Below, in pieces: positions 31,422-32,111 of a stretch of DNA of 64,000 nucleotides. This DNA is from Marinobacter sp. S6332 (GTDB taxonomy: Bacteria > Pseudomonadota > Gammaproteobacteria > Pseudomonadales > Oleiphilaceae), in NCBI RefSeq assembly GCF_023016045.1, contig NZ_JALKAP010000009.1:1-64000 (forward strand), written 5' to 3'. The notes beneath the pieces were generated by a model. The model saw only the letters and a program-made list of their open reading frames with translations, ran no database searches and was not told the origin of the DNA. The stretch's first letter is position 1. Every line of letters begins with the position of its first letter. Both the position numbers and the translations under genes were made by a program.

Positions 31422-31782
31422 AATCTACATTCGTGACCTGAAAGCAGGTGCCGTTTCCCGTTGGCTGGAAAGCCATATAAAGCAGTTGGTATTTGATGAC
31501 AGTGATGTTGCATCCGTTATCAAAGGCTCCGCGTATTTTGGCGAAGTGCGGCTTAAAATCACCTTGTATCCACAGGCTTTTGGTAAGCGATTTACCTCGT
31601 TGATTATTGAAGGTGAGAAGTTACCTTGGAGTAGCGATCTGGATTGTGCACGCAGTGCATGGCGAGCGATGGAGACCGAAGTCCGTTGCAGCCCGGGGGA
31701 GTGGCAAGAGGGTGAGGCGGTGGAAGATGAAAAATGGTGGCGGTTGGACGACCGGGGAGAGCAGCTTGTTGTTTGGAATTGA
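31393..31782 (+). CDS. Hypothetical protein coupled to the ClpN-like ATPase
   Basis: A 129-residue protein, from the ATG at 31393, which lies within the end of the upstream gene (29-base overlap in another frame). The frame is open further upstream, but the overlap position and the helix-strand start MENLRVQDLEIYIRDLKA support this start. It is acidic with Trp-rich end (DEKWWRLDDRGEQLVVW). No family is recognised. Tight overlap with the ATPase suggests a partner. It ends three bases before the nested inverted-repeat element. Confidence 0.7.
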   Translation: MENLRVQDLEIYIRDLKAGAVSRWLESHIKQLVFDDSDVASVIKGSAYFGEVRLKITLYPQAFGKRFTSLIIEGEKLPWSSDLDCARSAWRAMETEVRCSPGEWQEGEAVEDEKWWRLDDRGEQLVVWN

Positions 31783-31784
31783 CT

Positions 31785-32049
31785 AGTGTCCCGTCTGGCT
31801 AATTCGCTGACCTACTGCGAGCCGCTAAGGCTTCTGGCCAAGGCGCCAGTGCGCAGGTGTGGTGGTTCCACATCAAGGGCTGGCAACACCGGCCAGAAGC
31901 CTTAGCGGCTCGCCCTTTGGGAGCCCCTGCGGGCTTTGATAGCCGCGTTGCGCTGTCTCGATTTGGAACCACCAAACCTTCGCCACCGCGCCTAGCTCTC
32001 AAAGCCCGCAGGGGCTCAGTAGGTCAACGAATTAGCCAGACGGGACACT
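31785..32049. repeat. 265-bp MITE-like element of nested inverted repeats
   Basis: Terminal arms 31785-31817 and 32017-32049 are complementary at 32 of 33 bases. Inside, 31817-31839 pairs perfectly with 31891-31913 (23 bases), and 31921-31939 pairs perfectly with 31999-32017 (19 bases). The two loops carry mutually complementary sequence (31855-31877 with 31957-31979, 20 of 23). No protein-like frame is found. No clear target duplication is seen at the edges. It could be a miniature transposable element or a structured RNA; it begins three bases after a stop codon and lies between convergent genes. Confidence 0.8.
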
Positions 32050-32070
32050 CGCTGCGTGCCATCCAGAACG

Positions 32071-32111
32071 AAAAAAGGCAGCCCCTAGTCAAATAGTGGG
32101 CTGCCTTTTTG
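32071..32111. terminator. Bidirectional terminator before cold-shock-domain gene
   Basis: AAAAAGGCAGCCC (32072-32084) and GGGCTGCCTTTTT (32098-32110) pair perfectly around a 13-base loop. It lies just after the inverted-repeat element. Confidence 0.88.

Follow-up and report, generated by a model that had tools for sequence, protein, structure and literature searches.

The window, a 64,000-nucleotide stretch of Marinobacter sp. S6332, carries a 263-bp element without a gene (31786-32048). The element is a MITE with IS630-type ends. Its conserved core is probably the inherited entity, to which the ends of different IS have been attached again and again, and probably adds a property that does not depend on the transposase. 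By their ends, the members are ordinary MITEs. New here is a hairpin core, conserved in structure, that is carried by MITEs whose ends belong to different transposase families. The earlier note on this DNA, made from the sequence alone, missed both the IS630-type ends and the sharing of the hairpin core among MITEs with unrelated ends; its observation of nested inverted repeats is confirmed and its interpretation is partly supported.

Insertion into a CTAG site

The element starts with GTGTCCC, ends with GGGACAC, and is flanked by TA. Searching congeneric genomes with the two flanks joined recovers the site without the element. In the two nearest congeners, G053 and G085 (96% and 93% over the query, respectively), the empty site reads GGAATTGA-CTAG-CTGYG (loci L436 and L437), and the window site reads GGAATTGA-CTA/GTGTCCC...GGGACAC/TCG-CTGCG, indicating that the stretch is a real insertion. 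TA was duplicated on insertion, the right copy now being TC; equivalently, CTAG was duplicated. This is the target duplication that the earlier note had proposed to look for and, read as TA, that of an IS630-type MITE.

The stop codon TGA at 31780-31782 lies just before the element, as the earlier note had stated. A terminator-like hairpin with a T run follows on the 3' side (32072-32110). The hairpin itself is real, but relatives without the element also have the GGCAGCC...GGGCTGCC-T run at the empty site; it is therefore assigned to the host locus and not to the element.

Two side observations concern insertion sites. At an apparent orthologous gene end in G016 (L065, ~1488-1510), a short remnant of an element end supplies the stop codon, as judged by eye. 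At L078 (1189-1752), two back-to-back elements have one common CTAG, as if one had entered the target copy of the other.

Nested hairpins inside the element

Hairpins A and B lie head to head between the terminal repeats (Table 1). Linkers of the CCCGAAGGG type are seen by eye at a similar place in many loci of other clades. The broader covariance model described below (R2) matches the window at 31830-31901 (+) in hairpin A and at 31933-32004 (-) in hairpin B. Owing to the head-to-head layout, one sense unit lies on each strand, whichever way the element inserts.

Table 1 Features of the element and its target site
Feature	Position	Strand	Remark
Left TA target-duplication copy, inside CTAG	31784..31785		Empty-site comparison (L436/L437)
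Left terminal inverted repeat	31785..31817	+	33 nt, pairs with 32017-32049 at 97%
Hairpin A, arms 31817-31839 / 31891-31913	31817..31913	+	23 nt, 100%; core unit sense on +
CCC-TTT-GGG mini hairpin joining A and B	31913..31921	+	Read from sequence
Hairpin B, arms 31921-31943 / 31995-32017	31921..32017	-	23 nt, 96%; core unit sense on -
Right terminal inverted repeat, element proper to 32048	32017..32049	-	33 nt, 97%
Right TA target-duplication copy, now TC	32049..32050		Comparison with empty CTAG site

The near-perfect 33-base terminal repeats described earlier are thus present. Perfect arms of 23 and 19 bases had been described as well; this holds for A, but the arms of B are imperfect and longer than 19. 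The loops are complementary as claimed (31841-31877 with 31957-31993, 37 nt, 78%), because A and B are inverted relatives in a head-to-head layout. Loop complementarity is therefore a by-product of the layout and by itself no sign of the kissing that, according to the earlier note, it would allow.

The predicted RNA fold of the + strand has a free energy of -191.2 kcal/mol (z -16.8), and the DNA fold of the - strand has a z of -18.1. None of 200 shuffles is as good in either fold, excluding a chance origin of the nested inverted repeats.

Copies in Marinobacter and the probable IS630 partner

The element is matched in whole or in part by 67 of 124 congeneric genomes. At the level of the order, matches are found in 14 of 390 genomes (5 of 142 genera); among the matches listed, named records with the loop pattern are mostly Marinobacter. 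Elements with the same kind of ends occur in Tamilnaduibacter and in a Halomonadaceae MAG. From the loci gathered to that point, we extracted 93 distinct full-length copies, of which 63 have TA on both sides. In their 21-bp ends, all positions pair in 63 copies, 20 positions in 24, and 19 positions in 6. The copies are shorter than 500 bp and contain no transposase gene, as MITEs do. The draft genome of the window itself (39 contigs) yields partial matches and no second full copy, and a search of plasmids and phages with the window element gives no match.

Shorter forms comprise single-hairpin copies of ~170-190 bp and ends-only copies of ~55 bp (L081, L082, L083, L093, and L094); the four ends-only copies read out have a similar 11-nt middle in either orientation. 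That copies without hairpins exist indicates that the core is not strictly needed for persistence. At L080 (1477-2239, G011:C63), two element ends stand at a distance of 763 bp and enclose an open frame of 227 codons (1522-2205), representing either gene capture or two half elements. At L092, L365, and L368, a GC-rich insert enlarges the apical loop of one hairpin.

In one congener (G063), element-like ends lead into an IS630 transposase. By protein search, 34 of the 124 genomes contain relatives, among them the genome of the window with five copies (86% identity to the query). Two of the proteins are confirmed as IS630 family by NF033545 (272.9 and 271 bits; cut-off 100) and PF13358. Both ends are found at eleven IS630 loci, ten of which were measured (the eleventh is L194). 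The ten IS are 1182-1184 bp long, and 18 of their 20 ends lie at CTAG. Compared with the outer 18 bases of the element, the 20 ends have 1-5 mismatches, the best being L191 with 1; the best local matches extend over 20 nt in L191 (95%) and 27 nt in L198 (89%). The one copy examined of the five in the genome of the window differs from the ends of the element at 5 and 4 of 18 positions, so the best-matching IS reside in other species. A search of three IS630 loci (L188, L190, and L192) found no hairpin units.

The terminal repeats thus resemble those found on an IS630-family IS of this genus, as expected for an IS630-derived MITE. Given the resemblance of the ends and the common CTAG target, the transposase of this IS probably moves the element in trans. 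IS481 was rejected as the partner: among 30 IS481-like loci of the genus, where 1 of 124 genomes has a match above the cut-off, a single unpaired end has 4 mismatches (L108) and the rest have at least 5.

The hairpin core beyond the genus

Among the matches listed for the loop pattern, the unit is also found in Alteromonas and Aestuariibacter, where the ends of the elements are of a quite different kind (ATACCAATYCGCATAG). Within the class, R1, a covariance model of the ~72-nt unit, gives matches in 74 of 369 genomes and 61 of 272 genera, with E-values down to 1.7e-16 outside the genus. The broader model R2, built partly from the class matches of R1, finds the unit in 105 of 398 genomes sampled from the phylum; 48 of these belong to the class, and the other 57 are labelled as outside it. 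The cut-off of E 0.001 per genome may admit a few false matches, and the E-values, from a short calibration, are rough.

In 15 of 29 loci (L377-L405), a second unit lies nearby on the opposite strand, with a start distance of 104-106 bases in 13 loci and 120-121 in 2. The others have one unit, a contig end, or a second hairpin beyond the reach of the model. Terminal repeats were sought in 50 of the 57 loci obtained outside the genus with the two models (L377-L405 and L477-L504), the 7 near contig ends being excluded; one of these 57 loci, L478, in fact comes from a congener. An inverted repeat spanning 143-284 bp surrounds the unit in 46 of the 50, some being weak (L481 and L482); none surrounds it in L490, L497, L500, and L504. 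At L490 (1501-1573), the unit, without recognisable terminal repeats, adjoins an apparent groEL gene end, as judged by eye.

These observations bear on the simplest reading, a plain IS630 MITE of one genus with chance hairpins as its class-wide matches. Everything within the genus fits such a MITE. However, the E-values outside the genus, the pair geometry, which we hold to refute this reading, and the terminal repeats around most units all speak against it. So does a control: ten loci that lack such elements, nine of which were selected for a loop-like pattern, give at best a partial match (E 0.01). We therefore regard this reading as very improbable.

The loop pattern selects 9 stretches of IMG/VR, none with a full-length unit (best match partial, E 0.01), and E. 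coli genomes searched with one element (L485) give no match. The put-like antiterminator RNA of HK022 was rejected as the identity of the unit, the best match of the unit model in 40,000 of the 40,751 bases of phage HK022 having an E of 0.81. At the gathering score, Rfam finds three tRNAs and no unit in 20 loci; ranked by E-value for the window stretch and three Alteromonas loci, the unit is nowhere near a gathering score. No description of the core was found in the literature searched, which was accessible in part and had most subscription journals outside its scope, and a letter-by-letter literature search with six end sequences gave no match.

One core within unrelated ends

The terminal repeats of 16 hand-picked clades have a mean ungapped identity of 27%, which is near chance, with 70% for the highest pair. 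The repeats around the units are unrelated between most clades. Hosts among the plasmid-collection records are Vibrio, Photobacterium, Azotobacter, Pseudomonas aeruginosa, Halomonas, Variovorax, and Alteromonas macleodii.

The ends of the Pseudomonas/Azotobacter type (CTAGGGTCTGTTGACGTTT) resemble those of IS5-family IS of the ISPa67 type. One such end matches the end of an Aeromonas caviae IS over 28 bp at 92.9% (H24), and two are present both in this 862-bp IS and in ISPa67 of a Raoultella plasmid, each confirmed as IS5 family. Five plasmid regions with a Pseudomonas-type end were viewed out of 20 records. Both ends surround an IS5 gene in two of the five, L516 and L517 (ISPa67), neither of which was found to contain hairpin units. 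L515 and L518 have one end each, and L519 has a 317-bp pair without a detected unit. The Pseudomonas/Azotobacter copies, with ends matching those of an IS5-family IS, are accordingly IS5-derived MITEs by their ends, and one core is bounded by IS630-type ends in Marinobacter and by IS5-type ends in Pseudomonadaceae.

These are the only two of many kinds of ends for which an IS partner is found. IS630 was rejected in distant genomes: the copies in G618 have ends other than those of its MITEs, and near the IS630 gene of G517 the ends of its MITEs are not found. Inspection by eye of the ends listed for G764, G857, and part of G654 (G642 lying outside this set) revealed no IS-sized pair among ends of the L384/L385 kind. 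G764 and G654, genomes of ~2.4-2.5 Mb, contain at least 80 and at least 81 ends of one kind with up to 3 mismatches. Alteromonas ends are found in two plasmid records without an IS; one of the two, an Alteromonas macleodii plasmid, has a two-unit element. At L466 (4001-4170, Cupriavidus plasmid pRK1-5), a 170-bp single-hairpin MITE adjoins an IS481-family gene and is separate from it.

Arms covary around conserved unpaired positions

The earlier note had read covarying arms from the two hairpins of one element, and would have preferred chance or a local duplication had other copies been lacking or failed to keep pairing. Over the 93 full-length copies, the arms vary yet pair, and copies with other arms are present and still pairing. 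Watson-Crick pairing within copies is 88.8% for hairpin A (64 distinct arm pairs) and 91.9% for hairpin B (42), as compared with 58.2% and 63.7% between copies, the 3' arm being placed for best own pairing, which favours the first figures. Mean column conservation is 0.74-0.78 in the arms, 0.84-0.90 in the loops, and 0.90 in the ends.

A MAFFT alignment of 31 units (A1) comprises 31 of 43 cluster representatives, 12 having been dropped by eye as false, truncated, near-duplicate, or with enlarged loops. Its cells are paired at 90.0% versus 68.2% in shuffled alignments, the covariation score is 0.582 versus 0.207, and 17 of 23 pairs have double changes versus a shuffled mean of 15.0. A further alignment, A4, included matches below E 0.0008 and excluded the two weakest opposite-strand second units and the Cupriavidus unit.

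The unpaired positions are conserved: the 5' side has AAGGC, and the 3' side has TCAAG and GCAAC(G/A)C. Of the 31 units, 27 have G.U at one pair of the apical stem and the other 4 have A-U there; in another set, this fixed G.U is present in 47 of 62. Across clades, identity is 77% in unpaired core columns, 46% in paired columns, and 27% in the ends, although the searches for units relied on models that score conserved positions, which partly selects for this conservation. Wobble pairs are biased toward the strand that has the conserved unpaired motifs, strongly in the model-fitted set (126 G-T, of which the fixed pair contributes 47, versus 12 A-C) and modestly without a model (55 versus 29 on distinct, non-independent arms, z ~2.8; 96 versus 52 on 192 of 208 units). 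This asymmetry moderately favours a folded single strand over strand-symmetric correction of the arms.

Such correction is central to a reading without any selected function, in which the core would be an ordinary MITE interior, paired through template switching and spread by old descent and transfer. Quasi-palindrome correction keeps arms paired during drift, in line with what is seen here, and the asymmetry obtained without a model is modest. But correction should act equally on both strands and would not spare unpaired positions, which are the most conserved columns across clades even with the selection noted above. We therefore consider this reading unlikely.

Possible function of the core

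The stretch is one copy of a 263-bp MITE inserted into CTAG, and this copy was probably moved by an IS630-family transposase encoded elsewhere. Its inside is a head-to-head pair of units, in which arms vary with pairing kept and unpaired positions stay fixed. We propose as likely that the core is the inherited entity and has repeatedly been given the ends of different IS; since it is found under changing ends, it would make a contribution of its own, apart from the transposase, most probably in the form of a folded single strand.

The gene context of 89 insertions, assigned with a crude gene caller, was compared with that of 2670 random positions. The insertions are tandem in 23, divergent in 15, convergent in 7, inside genes in 37, and at an edge in 7 cases; the random numbers are 186, 130, 88, 2061, and 205, respectively. 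Sites inside genes are thus rarer than random. A count of sites inside open frames (56 of 77 versus 1271 of 1400 random ones) gives no information in GC-rich DNA. The 89 contexts are not biased toward the 3' ends of genes, nor do they show an orientation preference.

For the folded strand, RNA is favoured, with single-stranded DNA as a close second. As DNA, the core would work in single-stranded or extruded form (lagging-strand hairpins or a cruciform), joining the ends or marking replication, and would raise transposition with any transposase. The very stable DNA fold, the sense unit on each strand, the lack of any lean in gene context, and the occurrence of the unit between ends that resemble those of two transposase families are consistent with this; yet pairing alone needs neither the fixed unpaired motifs (AAGGC, TCAAG, GCAACGC) nor the fixed G.U pair, and ends-only copies persist. 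We regard the DNA reading as possible but rather doubtful. In the RNA reading, which we put forward tentatively and as short of an even chance in this full form, a structured RNA module would have spread through Pseudomonadota on the ends of unrelated resident IS, IS630 and IS5 among others. It would be a replicator that its fold, rather than its ends, defines, with a function common to the phylum.

Comparison with known systems

RUP is a short, gene-less MITE of the IS630 type, with the ends of an IS630-family IS and a TA target. The Marinobacter element resembles it in each of these respects. We know of no description for RUP of a two-hairpin core common to MITEs of other transposase families. 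RUP of Streptococcus pneumoniae is named as a MITE in the available text of PMC3733652.

In the same text, REP units measure 20-40 bp and are tagged with GTAG or CGTC. REP and REPIN resemble the present element in their many copies and in having hairpins in inverted order; they differ in that the present unit is ~72-97 nt and lies inside terminal repeats (PMC3733652, in part). We rejected an identity with REP/REPIN on the misfit of unit length and flanks, and on finding by eye no tag common to the clades.

MITEPsy1 of Pseudomonas syringae, as far as the accessible text of PMC3189936 describes it, has 100 nt, IS5-like ends, a CTAG or YTAA target, and a 4-nt duplication, and is reported to be mobile. 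It shares IS5-like ends and insertion at CTAG with the present elements but differs in length, and that part of the text does not mention such a core. QMITE2 and other prokaryotic MITEs have ends plus a core, with a stable transcript fold (PMC10969869, in part). QMITE2 is like the present element in both, but these MITEs are derived from an IS, and the same part of the source does not mention a core common to unrelated ends.

In the available parts of PMC10969869 and PMC3189936, bacterial MITEs are usually taken as the decayed offspring of one IS. A core that is conserved across the phylum under changing ends would reverse this view, with a conserved inside and exchangeable ends. The core also supplies a concrete, testable fold, with unpaired motifs and a fixed G.U pair.
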